From Companilactobacillus zhachilii (GTDB lineage: Bacteria; Bacillota; Bacilli; Lactobacillales; Lactobacillaceae), in assembly GCF_003606365.2 (NCBI RefSeq), contig NZ_CP031933.2:2650974-2714973 (forward strand): DNA of 64,000 bases, given 5' to 3'. This document shows, one piece after another, positions 4,238 through 60,513 of the stretch. How positions within the stretch are numbered: position 1 is the first letter of the stretch; each line of letters begins with the position of its first letter. A program made the translations under genes and the position numbers. Below the pieces are notes generated by a model. The model was not told where the DNA came from. It did no database searches and saw only the letters and a program-made list of their open reading frames with translations.

Positions 4238-4419
4238 GCCGTTTCCGGAGCCAAGAAAGATTAACTGGCAGTGCGGACCGGTCTGAGCCAAGGTCTCAGA
4301 CCTCAGTTTGAAGCCTTGCAAGCAAGTCTCCAAACATGCCCGGTGCTGTAAGGCCGAGAAAACCACTCGACCTAACACCACTTTCACTGCCTGTTAATCT
4401 TTCTTGGCTCCTCCGACTA
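4238..4419 (-). repeat. Family A multi-arm palindromic element, copy A1
   Basis: This element lies between parA and rsmG. The outer arms (ggagccaagaaagattaa and ttaatctttcttggctcc) pair almost perfectly. Inside are a gagccaaggtctc hairpin, a second arm, and the 'gcccggtgctgtaa' arm. It carries the subfamily II core (CCGGGC where most copies have CGGGAC). The strand call is arbitrary: minus means the TTACACCAC core reads on the minus strand. Confidence 0.8.
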
Positions 4420-4454
4420 TGGTATTTGTTATATTAATATTTTTAGATTAGTGA

Positions 4455-8210: not shown

Positions 8211-8390
8211 GCCGTCTCCGGGAGCAAGGGATTTAGGTTGCTGTGGGGACCACCTGGAGCCAAGGTCTCCAGGTTCGATTTTGAACTTCGAGAAAATCAC
8301 TCGAATTTCAAAACTCGTCCCGTGGTGTAGGCGCTAAAGCGCCAACGCCACCTTCACTGCTACCTAAATCCCTTGCTCCCTCCGACTAGT
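8211..8390 (-). repeat. Family A element, copy A2
   Basis: This element lies between the convergent EAL and pepC genes. The outer arms agcaagggatttaggt and acctaaatcccttgct pair. The inner hairpins are ctggagccaaggtctccag, a gaacttcgag/ctcgaatttc arm, and ggtgtaggcgctaaagcgcca. The subfamily I core (GTCCCGTGGTG) reads on the plus strand. Confidence 0.85.
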
Positions 8391-11839: not shown

Positions 11840-12021
11840 GCCGCCTTCAAGAGCAAGAAATTTAGGTCGCTATGGGGACCGATTGGAGCCGAAAGGCGGT
11901 CTCCAATCTCGATTTTGAACCTCGCATAAACCGCGAGTTTCAAAAGTCGTCCCGTGGTGTAGGCGCTAAAGCGCCAACGCCACCTGCACAGCGACCTAAA
12001 TTTCTTGCTCTTTCCGGCTAG
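11840..12021 (-). repeat. Family A element, copy A3
   Basis: This element lies upstream of ackA. The outer arms agagcaagaaatttaggtcgct and agcgacctaaatttcttgctct pair perfectly. The inner arms are ttggagccgaaaggcggtctccaa, gaacctcgc/gcgagtttc and ggtgtaggcgctaaagcgcca. It forms an inverted pair with A4 in the same gap. Confidence 0.88.
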
Positions 12022-12353: not shown

Positions 12354-12530
12354 CTAGCTGGAGGGAGTAAGTAATTTAGGTCGCTGTGAAAGTGGCGTTA
12401 TGGCTTTAGCCATTACACCACGGGACGACTTTTGAGACTTGCGGTTTTTGCAAGGCTCAAAATCGAGTCTGGAGACCTTGGCTCCAGACGGTCCCCATAG
12501 CGACCTAAATTACTTACTCCCGGAAGCGGC
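12354..12530 (+). repeat. Family A element, copy A4
   Basis: The outer arms gagtaagtaatttaggtcgct and agcgacctaaattacttactc pair perfectly and differ from A3 on both sides. The variable arm is atggctttagccat. The core TTACACCACGGGACGA is on the plus strand. Confidence 0.88.
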
Positions 12531-13284: not shown

Positions 13285-13393
13285 GTGAAACAAAACATAA
13301 CTTTTTCCGCTTAAAACAAACAGCTTCAGCAATCCAAGGTCGGATTACTGGAGCTGTTTGTTTTAAGGCTCGAAAACTGAACATGTTTTGTCC
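13285..13393. repeat. Family B hairpin repeat, copy B1
   Basis: Outer arms gaaacaaaacataac... and ...atgttttgtcc enclose the inner stem aacagcttcagcaatcc / ggattactggagctgtt. The 'ctttttccgcttaaaa' side and 'ttttaaggctcgaaa' side also match the other copies in reverse orientation. It lies between proC and the ECF S gene. Confidence 0.8.
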
Positions 13394-15026: not shown

Positions 15027-15143
15027 AGTGGGACAAAACATGGTCAGCTTTCGGGCATTAAAATAATAGCGCTAGCAATCCGATTTTGGATTACTAGCGC
15101 TATTTGGTTTAAGCGGAAAAAGCTATGTTTTGTTCCACGTTTA
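15027..15143. repeat. Family B hairpin repeat, copy B2
   Basis: The outer arms gtgggacaaaacatggtcagcttt and aaagctatgttttgttccac pair imperfectly. The inner stem tagcgctagcaatcc / ggattactagcgcta has a sequence unlike the other copies but remains complementary. Its right end reads TGTTCCACGT, the first ten bases of a parS site. Confidence 0.85.
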
Positions 15144-18483: not shown

Positions 18484-18602
18484 AGAGTGTGACAAAACAT
18501 GGTCAGCTTTCGAGCATTAAGGCAAATAAGACCCGCAATCCGATTTTGGATTGTGGGTTTTATTTGTTTTAAGCGGAAAAAGCTATGTTTTGTTGCACGT
18601 TT
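18484..18602. repeat. Family B hairpin repeat, copy B3
   Basis: The outer arms gtgacaaaacatggtcagcttt and agctatgttttgttgcac match copy B2. The inner stem is gacccgcaatcc / ggattgtgggttt, again a different sequence that still pairs. A further partial 'ttaaggcgaaaatagttatgtcac' fragment follows to about 18640. Confidence 0.85.
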
Positions 18603-18729: not shown

Positions 18730-18913
18730 CTAGCCGCAGGGTGAGCGAAATTTAGTCCGCCGTGAAGGTGGTGTAATGGCATTAGACATTACACCACGGG
18801 ACGAATTTTGAAATTCGAGCGGTTTTCTCGAAGTTCAAAATCGAGATTCGAGACCGCCCTTTGGCTCGAATCGGTCCCCACAGCGGACTAAATTTCTCTC
18901 TCCCTGCGGCGGC
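18730..18913 (+). repeat. Family A element, copy A5
   Basis: The outer arms gcgaaatttagtccgc and gcggactaaatttctc pair with a sequence different from the usual ggtcgct version. The variable arm is atggcattagacat; the second arm is gaaattcgag/ctcgaagttc. It lies upstream of cydA. Confidence 0.85.
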
Positions 18914-26804: not shown

Positions 26805-26981
26805 GCCGTCTCCAGATTCGGACAGTGGTCACTGGCGGTGCGGAACGGCCCGAGCCAAGGTCTCGGACCTCGGTTTAAGCCTTGCAAGTTCGGCAAGTCT
26901 TAAACACGCCCGGTGGTGTAAGAGCTAAAGCTCTAACGCCACTTTCACTGCCCGTAACCACTGTCCGAATCTTCCGACTAG
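26805..26981 (-). repeat. Family A element, copy A6 (subfamily II)
   Basis: The outer arms attcggacagtggtcactggc and gcccgtaaccactgtccgaat pair with a mismatch or two. Inner arms are cccgagccaaggtctcgg, a cttgcaag-type arm and aagagctaaagctctaac. It carries the CCGGGC core like A1 and A13, with GCGGAACG opposite. It forms an inverted pair with A7. Confidence 0.82.
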
Positions 26982-27124
26982 TTCTTTATAAACTCTAAAA
27001 TGGCTTGATACCTCAAATACTTTTTCTGGCTTTCATTACCATCTTGATAGGATTCTGGAACAACCATGCTCTTAAAATATTTATCCGTATAAGAATAGAT
27101 TCTTCTCAAACTAAGAAGAATAAA

Positions 27125-27306
27125 CCAGCCGGCAAGAGCAAGAAATTTTGGTTGCTGTACAGGTGGCGTTAGGGATTTATCCCTTACACCACGGGACGAC
27201 TTTTGAAACTCGCGGTTTTTGCGAGGTTCAAAATCGAGATTCGAGACCGCCCTTTGGCTCGAATCGGTCCCCATAGCGACCAAAATTTCTTGCTCTTGGA
27301 GGCGGC
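27125..27306 (+). repeat. Family A element, copy A7
   Basis: The outer arms agagcaagaaattttggt and accaaaatttcttgctct pair. The variable arm is tagggatttatcccta. Its right flank 'catatttaaccagcacca' is identical to that of copy A11, so the mobile unit may extend past the palindrome. Together with A6 it fills the gap of about 770 bp between the prenyl synthase and menA. Confidence 0.88.
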
Positions 27307-27429
27307 ATATTTAACCAGCACCACGAATCCCACTATCAAATTAATTTTCAAAACCAATCAATAACACTCACTCAAATTTCCCAGTAGTTTTATAATAAAA
27401 CAGACTACAAAAACAAAAGGAATGATTAT

Positions 27430-32705: not shown

Positions 32706-32883
32706 TTAGCCGGAAGAAGCAAGAAATTTAAGTCGCTGTGCAGGTGGTGTAAGAGCTTTAGCTCTTACACCACGGGACGACTTTTGAAATTCGCGTACTT
32801 TGCGAAGTTCAAAAGCGAGCTTGGAGACCTTGGCTCCGAGCGGTCCCCATAGCGACTTAAATTTCTTGATTCTGGAGGCGGCC
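32706..32883 (+). repeat. Family A element, copy A8
   Basis: The outer arms aagaaatttaagtcgct and agcgacttaaatttctt pair and differ from other copies at the same base on both sides (aag / ctt in place of tgg / cca). The variable arm is aagagctttagctctt. Confidence 0.88.
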
Positions 32884-36052: not shown

Positions 36053-36172
36053 AGATTGGAACAAAACACGGTCAGCCTTCGAGCATTAAGGCAAATGACT
36101 CTAGTAATCTGATTTTGGATTACTGGAGTCATTTGTTTTAAGCGGAAAAAGCTATGTTTTGTTTCACGTTTA
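36053..36172. repeat. Family B hairpin repeat, copy B4
   Basis: The outer arms gaacaaaacacggtcagc and agctatgttttgtttc pair with mismatches. The inner stem aaatgactctagtaatc / ggattactggagtcattt has yet another complementary sequence. The right end reads TGTTTCACGT, identical to the first ten bases of the parS consensus. Confidence 0.85.
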
Positions 36173-37035: not shown

Positions 37036-37049
37036 AAGCACGCATATAT

Positions 37050-37224
37050 GCCACCTCCAAGAGCAAGAAATTAGGTCGCTATGGGGACCGACAAAAGCCA
37101 AGGTCTTTTGTCTCGTTTTTGAACCTCGCACAAATCGCGAGTTTCAAAAACCGTCCCGTGGTGTAAGCACTAAAGTGCTAACGCCACCTGCACAGCGACC
37201 TAATTTCTTGCTCTTTCCGGCTAG
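37050..37224 (-). repeat. Family A element, copy A9
   Basis: The outer arms agagcaagaaattaggtcgct and agcgacctaatttcttgctct pair perfectly. The inner arms are caaaagccaaggtcttttg, gaacctcgcacaaatcgcgagtttc and aagcactaaagtgctaac. The right flank (ctagttcattgtttgtttttgaatcaat) resembles, in reverse, the left flank of A11. Confidence 0.88.
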
Positions 37225-37470
37225 TTCATTGTTTGTTTTTGAATCAATATTAAATAACATTAAGTATAATTTTGACATCAATGACTAGAATTAAAGGGTA
37301 TGGAGTATGTTCTGAATCTTTTGATTTTAAAAACATAAAAATTATTTCAATTCCATAATCAAAAAATCAACTAACACCATGAGTAATACAGCCATTTTTT
37401 TGCTTAGGCTAAATAAGATTCGCAATCCAAAATCGGTTTTTTTCTCAATTTTGAATTGCGAATCGAATAT
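37225..37470. other. Spacer with degenerate family B remnant
   Basis: No gene is seen. Around 37405-37460, aagattcgcaatccaaaatcgg and ttgaattgcgaatc form a hairpin resembling a decayed family B inner stem. It leads directly into family C copy C2, giving the order B-C-A10. Confidence 0.45.
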
Positions 37471-37519
37471 AAAAAGGCTAGATATGTTTTCCTGGTATAG
37501 AAAATGCATCTAGCCTTTT
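37471..37519. repeat. Family C hairpin, copy C2
   Basis: The arms aaaaaggctagatatgttttc and gaaaatgcatctagcctttt (via a 'ctggtata' loop) match copies C1 and C3. The 43 bp that follow (including aaaaaataacaaatatattagtctc) match the sequence after C3. Confidence 0.75.
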
Positions 37520-37562
37520 ATCGAATCAATTAGTTATGCAGTATAAAAAATAACAAATATAT

Positions 37563-37741
37563 TAGTCTCTGGGTGCAAGAAATGTTGGCTGCAGTGCAGG
37601 TGGCGTTAGGACTTTACTATTACACCACGGGACGAGTTTTGAAATTCGCGTACTTTGCGAAGTTCAAAATCGAGGTTCGAGACCGCCTTTCGGCTCGAAC
37701 CGGTCCCCACAGCGCCAACATTTCTTGCACCCAGAGACGGC
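37563..37741 (+). repeat. Family A element, copy A10
   Basis: The outer arms ctctgggtgcaagaaatgttgg and ccaacatttcttgcacccagag pair perfectly with a sequence not seen in other copies. The second arm is gaaattcgcgtactttgcgaagttc. The variable arm (aggactttactatta) is degenerate here and no longer pairs well. Confidence 0.85.
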
Positions 37742-37765
37742 AATTAACCAAATTTAAGAAAGAAC

Positions 37766-44755: not shown

Positions 44756-44872
44756 ATTATATTCAGTTTCAAATGTCGAATTAGTTAGTTACATCGTATT
44801 AAAAATAACAAATGTATTAGTCTCCGGTTGATAATTGGTCTTTTGATTATTGATTCAAAAATAATGAATGAA

Positions 44873-45054
44873 CTAGCCGGAAAGTGCAAGAAATTTTGGT
44901 CGCTGTGCAGGTGGTGTAATGGCTAAAGCCATTACACCACGGGACGACTTTTGAAACTCGCGGTTTTTGCGAGGTTCAAAATCGAGATTCGAGACCGCCT
45001 TTTGGCTCGAATCGGTCCCCATAGCGACCAAAATTTCTTGCGCTTGGAGGCGGC
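44873..45054 (+). repeat. Family A element, copy A11 (clearest example)
   Basis: The outer arms gcaagaaattttggtcgct and agcgaccaaaatttcttgc pair perfectly. The internal arms are ggtggtgtaatggctaaagccattacaccac (split across both sides), gaaactcgcggtttttgcgaggttc, and cgagattcgagaccgcc with its partner ggctcgaatcg. GGGAC and GTCCC close the inner two arms. The gap around it (44756-45179) holds nothing else recognised. Confidence 0.9.
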
Positions 45055-45179
45055 ATATTTAACCAGCACCAAACGCTTTCCTCATATATATTATGAGAGA
45101 TTTTTAGTATCATTACAAGACTGTTATTTAGCAGTTTAACGTATTACCATTAGATATCTAATATACAGGAGGTATCGTT

Positions 45180-47894: not shown

Positions 47895-48076
47895 GCCGCC
47901 TCCAAGAGCAAGGAATTTTGGTCGCTATGGGGACCGATTCGAGCCAAGGAACGGTCTCGAATCTCGCTTTTGAACCTCGCAAAAACCGCGAGTTTCAAAA
48001 GTCGTCCCGTGGTGTAGGTGCTAAAGCACCAACGCCACCTACACAGCGACCAAAATTCCTTGCTCTTTCCGGCTGG
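47895..48076 (-). repeat. Family A element, copy A12
   Basis: The outer arms agagcaaggaattttggtcgct and agcgaccaaaattccttgctct carry a compensatory A-to-G/T-to-C change relative to A11. The inner arms are gattcgagcc/gtctcgaatc, gaacctcgcaaaaaccgcgagtttc and taggtgctaaagcaccaa. It sits between divergent genes. Confidence 0.9.
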
Positions 48077-49390: not shown

Positions 49391-49486
49391 TGGGACCGTG
49401 ACATAACCATTTTTTCATCAAACGTGCATCTAAATAAATAGCTCCAGTAATCCGATTTTGGATTACTGGAGCTATTTATTTAGACC
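49391..49486. repeat. Family B repeat, truncated copy B5
   Basis: The inner stem taaataaatagctccagtaatcc / ggattactggagctatttattta is perfect, but the outer arms are reduced (gaccgtgacataacc on the left only). It lies directly after the stop of the alpha/beta hydrolase gene and can serve as its terminator. The upstream 49138-49390 stretch has a short AT-rich frame with no ribosome site and nothing else. Confidence 0.8.
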
Positions 49487-51235: not shown

Positions 51236-51321
51236 AAGTGCAAATTAAGTAAAACAGCTCCAGTAATCCAAAGCGGATTACTGGAGCTGTTTGTTTTACG
51301 CGAAAAAAATTATATTTTGTA
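51236..51321. repeat. Family B repeat, reduced copy B6
   Basis: The inner stem aaaacagctccagtaatcc / ggattactggagctgttt is perfect; the outer arms are shortened to traces (gcgaaaaaaattatattttgt on the right). It lies between nagB and the convergent nhaC and probably terminates both. Confidence 0.8.
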
Positions 51322-58220: not shown

Positions 58221-58348
58221 CTTAAACGAGCTACGACCGGGCAACTCCTTCCGCTTCGCCTAACTTCCCAAATCATCCGCAAAAAACGCGGATAATTCGT
58301 GAAGTCATGCAAATGCTCGGGAGCTGGGAGCCCGGTCTTCGCTCTCTA
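58221..58348. repeat. Family D hairpin repeat, copy 4
   Basis: This matches copy 2 nearly base for base in the core (tccttccgcttcgcctaac, catccgc/gcggat, cgtgaagtcatgcaaatgctcggg). Its outer arms gagctacgaccggg and cccggtcttcgctc have changed together. It abuts the mnmG stop codon, as copy 3 abuts the DUF1129 stop codon. Confidence 0.8.
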
Positions 58349-60241
58349 TTTTTTGGCGATCTTTCCTTGTTCAATATAAACGCTCAAAATTCCAATATCA
58401 GCTGGGTTAACTCCACTGATTCGGCTGGCTTGAGCAATTGTTTGTGGATTGATTTTACTTAACTTCTGAACAGCTTCGGTTGCTAAACTGTCAACCTTCG
58501 TATAGTCGATACGGTCTGGGATCTTCTTTGATTCCATTTTCTTCAAACGATCGATACGCATTTGTTCTTTCTTGATATAACCATCGTATTTAGTAGCAAT
58601 TTCAACTTGTTCAGCTACTCGGTTATCAACTGGAAAATCAGCTGCACCGACCATATCAATAATATCTGCGTAATGTACTTCCGGTCTTCTCAAGAAATGA
58701 TCTGCCAAAACGCCATCTTTCAATGGTTTCAAGTCATGTGCTTTCAAGAATGGCAAAGCTTGTTTTGGTGTAATCATCTTATGAGATAAGCGGTCGAGTT
58801 CTTTCTTGATAGTATCACGTTTGATATTGAAGGCGTTATAACGCTTATCGTTAATCAAGCCTAACTTGTAGCCGTAGTCTGTTAGACGTAAATCGGCATT
58901 ATCGTGACGTAAAATCAAACGATATTCAGCACGACTTGTTAATAGACGATATGGTTCGTTAGTTCCCTTAGTTACTAAATCATCAATCAAAACGCCGATA
59001 TAGGCTTCATCACGGCGAAGAATAAATGGATCTTTACCCTCAGCGCGTAAAGCGGCATTAATACCAGCCATAATACCTTGACCAGCAGCTTCTTCATAAC
59101 CGGAAGTTCCGTTCATTTGGCCGGCGGTAAAGAGATTTTTAACAACTTTAGTTTCCAAATTAAGTTTCAATTGCCATGGTTCGATAACATCATATTCAAT
59201 CGCATAACCAGGACGCATCAACTTAGCATTCTCCAAACCAGCGACTGAATGAAGCATCTTCAATTGAACTTCTTCTGGCATTGAGGTTGAGAAATCACCT
59301 ACGTAATATTCCTGAGTATCTTTACCTTCTGGCTCTAGGAAAATTTGGTGACGAGGTTTGTCAGCAAAACGGACAATCTTATCTTCGATTGAAGGACAAT
59401 ATCTTGGGCCAACACCTTTGATTACTCCGGAGAACATTGGTGCACGATCAAGGTTTTCACGGATGATCTTGTGTGTTTCGGCATTTGTATAAGTCATCCA
59501 ACAAGAAATTTGATGTTGAAGATAACTTGAATCTGGGGTTTCAAATGAGAAGTGATTTGGTTCTTTATCACCAGGTTGTTCGATAGTTTCATCAAACTTG
59601 ATAGTATTTTTATTAACACGTGGTGGTGTACCAGTCTTGAAACGAGTCAATTTAAAACCATGTTTTTCAAGATCTTCTGAAAGCTTAATTGAAGGAATAC
59701 TGTTATTAGGACCTGATGAATACATCAGTTCACCAATAATAATTTTCCCTCGTGATGAAGTACCGGCTGTCAAAACAACTGACTTAGCGTGATATCTAGC
59801 ACCAGTAGCTGTAACGATACCCTTGCAGACACCATCTTCAACAATCAGCTTTTCGGCCATCCCTTGACGCAAAGTTAAGTTAGGTTCGTTTTCCAAAACA
59901 TCCTTCATCATACGGTGATACAAGTTTTTATCAGCTTGGGCACGTAATGCTCGAACAGCGGGACCTTTCCCAGTATTGAGCATTCGCATTTGAATATATG
60001 TCTTATCAATATTGCGGCCCATTTCACCACCCAAAGCATCGATTTCACGGACAACGATACCTTTAGCGGGACCACCAACTGAAGGATTACATGGCATAAA
60101 AGCTACCATATCCAAGTTGATTGTTACGAGCAAAGTTTTTTCACCCATACGGGCAGCAGCTAATGCAGCTTCAGAACCAGCGTGGCCGGCACCAACAACG
60201 ATAACGTCATAAGTTTCTGAATCAAATTCCTTAATTTCCAT
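58346..60241 (-). CDS. mnmG: tRNA uridine-5-carboxymethylaminomethyl modification enzyme MnmG (GidA)
   Basis: This FAD-dependent partner of MnmE modifies the wobble uridine of several tRNAs. It has 631 residues, typical. The FAD motif [19 protein letters not shown] is at the N-terminus; [29 protein letters not shown] and [21 protein letters not shown] are strongly conserved. The ATG is preceded by AAGGTGAAGT. A shortened family A copy separates it from mnmE, with which it is normally contiguous. Its usual downstream gene, rsmG, is 53 kb away. Confidence 0.98.
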
Positions 60242-60365: not shown

Positions 60366-60513
60366 CTAGTCGGAAGAACCGAGAAACTTAACTGGCAGTG
60401 AAAGTAGCGTTAGAGATTTAGCTCTTACACCACCGGGCGTGTTTGGAGGCTCGAGACCTTGGCTCACGCTGGTCCGCACAGCCAGTAACTATTTTCTCTG
60501 TTCCGGAGACGGC
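60366..60513 (+). repeat. Family A element, copy A13 (one arm missing)
   Basis: The outer arms agaaacttaactggc and gccagtaactattttct pair with bulges. The variable arm agagatttagctct and the gagaccttggctc arm are present. The gaaactcgcg-type arm found in the other copies is absent, leaving about 148 bp. It has the subfamily II core CCGGGC. It lies between mnmG and mnmE, and the flanking 60242-60365 shows nothing else. Confidence 0.82.

Follow-up and report, generated by a model that had tools for sequence, protein, structure and literature searches.

The chromosome of Companilactobacillus zhachilii carries a new family of MITE-like elements that have an elaborate palindromic core common to two kinds of unit and that show a striking head-to-head order. 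The core was recognized in a window of 64,000 nucleotides (the whole stretch of DNA that was analysed; contig NZ_CP031933.2, positions 2,650,974 to 2,714,973), in which an earlier note had described 13 palindromic copies in intergenic gaps; the copy at 44873..45054 is referred to below as the named copy. These copies probably belong to a large family of mobile DNA elements of the MITE type, which are non-coding and non-autonomous. Sites with the TTACACCACGGGACGA-type core motif number 328 on the 2,714,973 bp chromosome (none for the reversed control), and a profile search of 61 genome stretches totalling 1,263,973 bp yielded 238 elements, a set restricted to hits that span 60 or more model positions (238 of 259 kept). 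Extrapolation from this 1.26 Mb sample suggests a whole-genome total of approximately 500 copies, with about 3% of the 2.7 Mb genome present as long palindromes. Sister species show filled, empty, and collapsed sites, and the birth, pairing, exchange, and loss of such palindromes are therefore traceable in nature, in bacteria that are associated with food. The size of the family, the head-to-head pairs, an A-rich tract, and two unrelated types of terminal repeat all go beyond what the earlier note had reported.

The core is approximately 180 bp long and comprises an outer stem, one hairpin, and a short stem from which two further hairpins branch, such that the palindrome forms two nested three-way junctions. 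In the named copy (forward strand; 186.7 bits with the covariance model), which runs from its head at 44873 to the tail GGCGGC at 45049-45054, the minimum-energy fold pairs the left arm of the outer stem (44882..44907) with the right arm (45020..45045). Between them lie inner hairpin 1 (44911..44940; 13 base pairs and a 4-base loop), which corresponds to covarying helix 4, and an inner arm (44941..45019), in which a stem (44941-44945/45015-45019) leads to hairpins at 44946-44983 and 44986-45013, corresponding to helices 5-7. Folded as RNA, the named copy reaches -106.6 kcal/mol, whereas its shuffles average -53.9 (z -11.8), and its other strand folded as DNA gives a z of -11.2. Outside the palindrome, the flank profile of 194 copies contains a conserved A-rich tract on the head side (44856..44874 on the forward strand at the named copy; T-rich from the tail side), and on the tail side conservation fades within a few bases. 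Some copies have, by eye, been collapsed to simple hairpins through internal deletion. One core in stretch L017 (approximately 1500-1720) has its inner hairpin duplicated in tandem, and hairpin modules are therefore gainable as well as losable.

All 13 window copies described previously were recovered by the covariance model at the same starts to within 1 nt (37562 versus 37563 for one of them). The model was made from 38 aligned copies, eight of which are from the window, and an alignment of the 13 window copies, also made, has the same starts. Within the window, TTACACCACGGGACGA is matched 12 times at no more than three mismatches, six of the matches being exact (0.24 expected from 100 shuffles). 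Cores on the reverse strand lie at 4238..4420 (144.6 bits, the most diverged of the full-length copies), 8211..8389 (191.3 bits), and 47895..48076 (192.2 bits), and those on the forward strand, besides the named copy, at 18730..18913 (166.3 bits), 32706..32882 (192.9 bits), and 60366..60513 (89.8 bits), the last being a shortened core that has lost its inner hairpin. The remaining copies form head-to-head pairs, each with the left member on the reverse strand and the right member on the forward strand: 11840..12021 (188.5 bits) with 12354..12530 (199.5 bits), 26805..26981 (161.3 bits) with 27125..27306 (182.2 bits), and 37050..37224 (182.6 bits) with the core at 37562-37741 (166.4 bits). A short open frame with a hydrophobic start, reading away from the core, was seen by eye at 26982-27124 and in other head flanks; its occurrence beside some copies may be due to chance.

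Some cores constitute the right-hand part of larger units, approximately 330-380 bp in length, that lie between inverted terminal repeats (TIRs). The units are of two types, TIR1 and TIR2, which have unrelated ends and the same core, and whose left regions differ by eye. Nine complete units of each type were seen, ranging in length from 195 to 379 bp (TIR1, 327-369 bp with one of 195 bp; TIR2, 330-379 bp), which is too short to encode a transposase. TIR1 ends resemble ACGCGTGGTGCTAGTT, for which there are 55 genome sites at two mismatches or fewer compared with one for a control motif; among 43 matches in the sample, 16 lie just past tails and 17 are inverted and lie 100-160 nt beyond heads. 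Target duplications of 7-9 bp flank seven of the nine TIR1 units, and none of 5000 shuffles did as well; the other two units are without a good duplication, and a first duplication test that allowed no offset was not significant. TIR2 ends resemble GGTTCTTTCTCAA, and perfect repeats of 7-9 bp, one of them a run of A, flank four of the nine units (6 of 5000 shuffles). About half of the TIR2 units are without a good duplication, including the one in the window (37435..37765, forward strand, with TIR2 at both ends around the core at 37562-37741), for which no target duplication was found. Some TIR2 units (L078, L060, and L038) sit, by eye, inside terminator-like hairpins.

Single TIR1-like sequences also occur beside cores of the window, on the head side of 37050..37224 (at 37369-37384), next to 27125..27306 (at 27313-27328), and adjoining the tail of the named copy (45061..45076, forward strand), where the TIR1 search found no matching far end. 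With relaxed criteria, one or more TIR1 was recognized beside 36 elements and one or more TIR2 beside 31 of 208 (1 and 9 of 208 for the TIR2 control motifs), so that most elements have no recognizable TIR. The TIR2 search, the comparison of left regions, and the terminator and T-tract analyses below used elements scoring 80 bits or more (between 200 and 208 of the 238). The complete units thus bear out the earlier proposals of a mobile element and of a MITE, having the TIRs, target duplications, and length of MITEs as well as empty sites in relatives; for the remaining elements, we only infer mobility.

Units of both types would have been moved by transposases supplied in trans, of the ISL3 type in the case of TIR2, and the copies without recognizable ends would be worn descendants of complete units. 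The TIR2 start GGTTCTTTCTCAA resembles ISL3-type ends, and the duplications of about 8 bp are another feature in common with the ISL3 family of insertion sequences, from which the units differ in having no transposase gene. The genome contains one ISL3-type transposase match, at a locus whose ends are, by eye, only distantly similar to TIR2. No autonomous element with either kind of end was found: among the 55 genome sites of TIR1, no inverted pair around a gene-sized body was seen by eye, and the search for TIR2 covered the vicinity of cores in the sample. Not every MITE need have such an autonomous relative. An autonomous parent lying between far head-to-head pairs was considered and rejected: such gaps of 600-5000 bp number 17 in the sample and 4 in Companilactobacillus nantensis, and in the 10 of the 21 that were scanned, with one protein each, all proteins were ordinary and none was a transposase.

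A rival reading is that of a REPIN-like or retro-copied family, in which the folded strand would be the substrate of either an HUH (Y1) transposase or a reverse transcriptase. The inverted pairing of palindromes, as in REP doublets, would suit such an origin, as would a mild replication bias of 141 head-on versus 97 co-directional among the 238 elements (summed by hand, with the origin assumed at the contig start). However, the complete units have DDE-type ends, Y1 (PF01797), which is matched in 18 of 36 genomes of the genus, is matched neither here nor in C. nantensis, and reverse transcriptase (PF00078), which is matched in 12 of the 36 and twice in C. nantensis, has no match here. With neither enzyme matched, REPIN- or retro-type movement today is disfavoured, and such an origin for the family is highly improbable.

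The placement of the elements and the character of their base pairs indicate whether they are better understood as DNA or as RNA. The earlier claim that copies never lie inside genes holds for 226 of 230 placed elements, which are between called genes, and fails for four overlaps, which are hits of 20-57 bits; gene positions in the 61 stretches came from a simple gene caller of our own rather than from curated annotation. Of these 226 intergenic elements, 79 are in sense and 60 in antisense orientation in tandem gaps, with 46 in convergent and 41 in divergent gaps. Pairing is preserved throughout the family: in 150 copies, 98.4% of cells pair, two-sided changes are present at 51 of 66 pairs, and covariation scores 0.422, compared with 0.149 for shuffled and at most 0.079 for slid controls, in an alignment fitted to the model, which favours structure. 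Such strong covariation and a stable fold would be expected of a conserved structured RNA, a regulatory leader or small RNA that occurs in hundreds of copies, with selection acting on the sense-strand transcript, and letters conserved across genera and a preponderance of G-U over A-C cells (136 versus 65, with two fixed positions omitted) point the same way. When the fixed mismatch positions are counted, however, the preponderance shrinks to 198 versus 174 (94% Watson-Crick, 9568 of 10177 cells), and in the model pairs 95.8% of cells (9463 of 9877) are Watson-Crick. G-U accounts for approximately 2% of helical cells compared with 6.6% (69 of 1053) in the tRNAs of these genomes, a control in which ARAGORN brackets only the pairs that it accepts.

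The structured RNA that the earlier note had entertained is accordingly disfavoured by the scarcity of G-U pairs, the slight strand preference, and a placement indifferent to gene orientation, as well as by the TIRs and target duplications of the units, and is quite unlikely. A DNA palindrome fits the data better because pairing is of the Watson-Crick kind, there is little strand preference, and no consistent orientation to genes is seen, although a modest sense bias remains. As a DNA palindrome, the core may persist because its pairing is kept perfect, either by exchange or correction among arms or copies or by selection. The family is a caution for structured-RNA discovery, in that covariation that is ordinarily accepted as proof of a functional RNA occurs in what is probably a mobile DNA palindrome. 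Template switching has reportedly been proposed as creating and maintaining hairpins, and the family provides hundreds of parallel cases within a single genome in which to test it.

Read from tail to head, the 16 nt following the stem are 58% T, compared with 29% on the other side and 32% in the genome (206 copies). Because the core read tail first resembles a terminator, with a strong hairpin and then a T-rich tract, it may make insertions tolerable. A further step would be to regard the elements as bidirectional terminators or insulators kept by the host, with pairs retained as stops entered from the tails and mobility belonging to the past. This is unlikely. Besides the T-rich tract, it accords with the short distance between tails and the stop codons of facing genes (median 28.5 nt; 40 nt or less in 61 of 106 and 10 nt or less in 25 of 97), with the lack of tail-to-tail pairs, and with the antiquity of some pairs and slots, which predate a species split. 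The short distances may, however, reflect no more than short gaps and the terminal position of the core within its unit. Moreover, gene 5' ends are faced by tails about as often as 3' ends (120 versus 106), and cores have been lost or collapsed in many orthologous gaps. A separate terminator was detected beside 6 of 97 tails facing gene 3' ends, with a detector that is itself insensitive, reporting terminators at only 18 of 211 and 2 of 102 element-free gene ends.

Of 54 pairs of neighbouring elements less than 600 bp apart, 45 are head-to-head, 9 are tandem, and none is tail-to-tail; under random orientation, the chances are 3e-19 for the head-to-head count and 2e-7 for the absence of tail-to-tail pairs. 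In four of the nine tandem pairs the gap is negative, probably because a single hit was split. In C. nantensis, 17 of 19 close neighbours are likewise head-to-head, and pairs recur in further species. The orientation is real, and a plain MITE model does not predict this bias. Two simple accounts were rejected. For the pair as a single inserted unit, there is no clear excess of repeats outside the tails, and the two members resemble each other no more than randomly drawn ones do (median 0.718 versus 0.727 in 41 pairs). Nor does a pair consist by rule of two core types, since 25 of 45 pairs are mixed, near the 22 expected by hand calculation. Six orthologous gaps contain two cores in one species and one in the other; at L031, L044, and L072 the single-core species retains, by eye, a collapsed remnant of the second core, and those pairs are therefore older than the species split. 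In other pairs the members are units of different kinds, for example the TIR1-type 37050 and TIR2-type 37562 elements of the window. In one head-to-head pair (L045:1175 and 1886), a tRNA gene (RF00005; L045:1577-1662) lies between the members.

The comparison with C. nantensis, which is 85% identical at a test locus, covered 207 orthologous gaps, of which 170 are core-free, 15 have cores only in C. zhachilii, 4 only in C. nantensis, and 18 in both. Empty sites, which the earlier note had proposed seeking in sister strains, exist in related species as core-free orthologous gaps, among them the counterpart of the gap holding 18730..18913. The gap holding 47895..48076 is 453 bp here and 210 bp and core-free in C. 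nantensis, and that at 37036-37765, with its pair, measures 730 bp against 70 bp in C. nantensis. In Companilactobacillus huachuanensis, a pair precedes a Kup-like gene at a place where the other two species have none. Loss also contributes: at L062 and L039, the sequence of the seemingly empty species contains a collapsed hairpin, which therefore indicates loss there rather than insertion. The C. nantensis gap orthologous to that of the 26805..26981 pair is also paired, the one corresponding to the single core 32706..32882 holds a pair, and the slot of the shortened core 60366..60513 has a full core in the same orientation.

Thirteen cores in the same orientation at orthologous places were compared; this set leaves out L033:4137, L033:6258, L072:14009, L087:3336, and window:32706, where the C. 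nantensis copy was low-scoring or its stretch was not entered, and L035, where the cores have opposite orientations in the two species. Four of the 13 are reciprocal best matches and nine are not. Of the pair changes in the three intact reciprocal-best cores, 24 are two-sided, 1 is one-sided, and none is broken, and the fourth, the shortened window copy at 60366, has 1, 1, and 9, respectively; all 13 together have 173 two-sided, 27 one-sided, and 20 broken changes. Among the closest copies within the genome, two-sided changes number 108 and one-sided changes 102 (43 independent pairs), and because the between-species and within-genome counts disagree, no one-step change of both arms is claimed. 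At L040:14026, L040:16390, and L087:3338, the two species share, by eye, the same tail junction but have different core types, as would result either from an exchange within the slot or from more than one insertion at the same position.

These slots bear on a more specific possibility, less likely than not, namely that the core is a portable unit carried in two unrelated transposon bodies, with pairs at fixed slots that are overwritten by other copies; part of the same proposal is that exchange, or DNA correction templated by an arm, would yield covariation without any RNA function. Exchange in place is supported by the three slots with shared junctions and different core types and by the nine of 13 orthologous cores that are not best matches. 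The nearly equal one-sided and two-sided counts in the closest copies are neutral or weigh against it, and repeated insertion would fit the slots as well.

Beyond these species, the model search of the genome and its relatives that the earlier note had suggested found elements in 14 of 36 Companilactobacillus genomes (E below 1e-30, with no more than 76 scored candidates in each genome) and in two other genera, and counts of the motif across genus genomes range from 0 to 328. Weak matches to the model, seen in 34 of the 36, were not taken to show presence, since even the reverse strand of a copy scores 61 bits. Membership of the genus is also indicated by a HelD-like window protein, below the curated cut-off for that family, which matches ten Companilactobacillus species at 55-79% identity. 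Across the order, at least 5 of 295 genomes reach E 1e-15, two of them Companilactobacillus and three belonging to two further genera within the family, a lower bound given the strict filters and the nine candidates per genome. The two best copies outside the genus have the same layout and keep many of the loop letters. A blastn search with one copy as query gave no match among plasmids or phages, and the exact core motif is absent from the viral contigs searched. There was likewise no match to an Rfam family, none reaching the gathering score and none of nine matches up to E 5 lying at a core copy.

A survey of titles and abstract openings in the lactobacilli literature, conducted mostly outside subscription journals, returned no named family matching this core. 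A table of stem-loop families in PMC2267715 has a row for Lactobacillus johnsonii. As described in part of PMC10969869, prokaryotic MITEs such as QMITE2 are similarly short and non-coding, with TIRs, duplications of 7-9 bp, AT-rich intergenic targets, and stable hairpin folding; relative to those described there, the present family is distinguished by one elaborate core in two end types, by hundreds of copies, and by head-to-head neighbours. The BOX, RUP, and SPRITE elements of Streptococcus pneumoniae, in the portion of PMC3049150 that describes them, are also small, interspersed, strongly folded, modular repeats that are present in hundreds of copies in one species group and insert into one another, and SPRITE shares the T-rich tract after the duplex. 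They are set apart, on these descriptions, by another host group and by the core here of approximately 180 bp with two three-way junctions and head-to-head pairing. REP/BIME palindromes with their RAYT transposases are often paired as well, but the REPs are 20-40 bp long in the relevant part of PMC3733652, whereas the present family has TIRs and duplications and its genome no Y1 match.

The window contains other repeats. A second intergenic repeat consists of a CAATCC...GGATT hairpin, followed in several copies by GTTTTAAGCGGAAAAAGCTATGTTTTGTT, and is found at 13314-13363, 15060-15109, 18520-18569, 36089-36138, 49432-49481, and 51247-51296; part of it (query 724-800) matches several genus genomes. 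It looks like a repeated bidirectional terminator, and some TIR2 units sit, by eye, in such hairpins. Another direct repeat occurs at 75-207, 205-337, and 58222-58354, the copy at 58222 being 92% and that at 205 being 65% identical to the first copy at 75.
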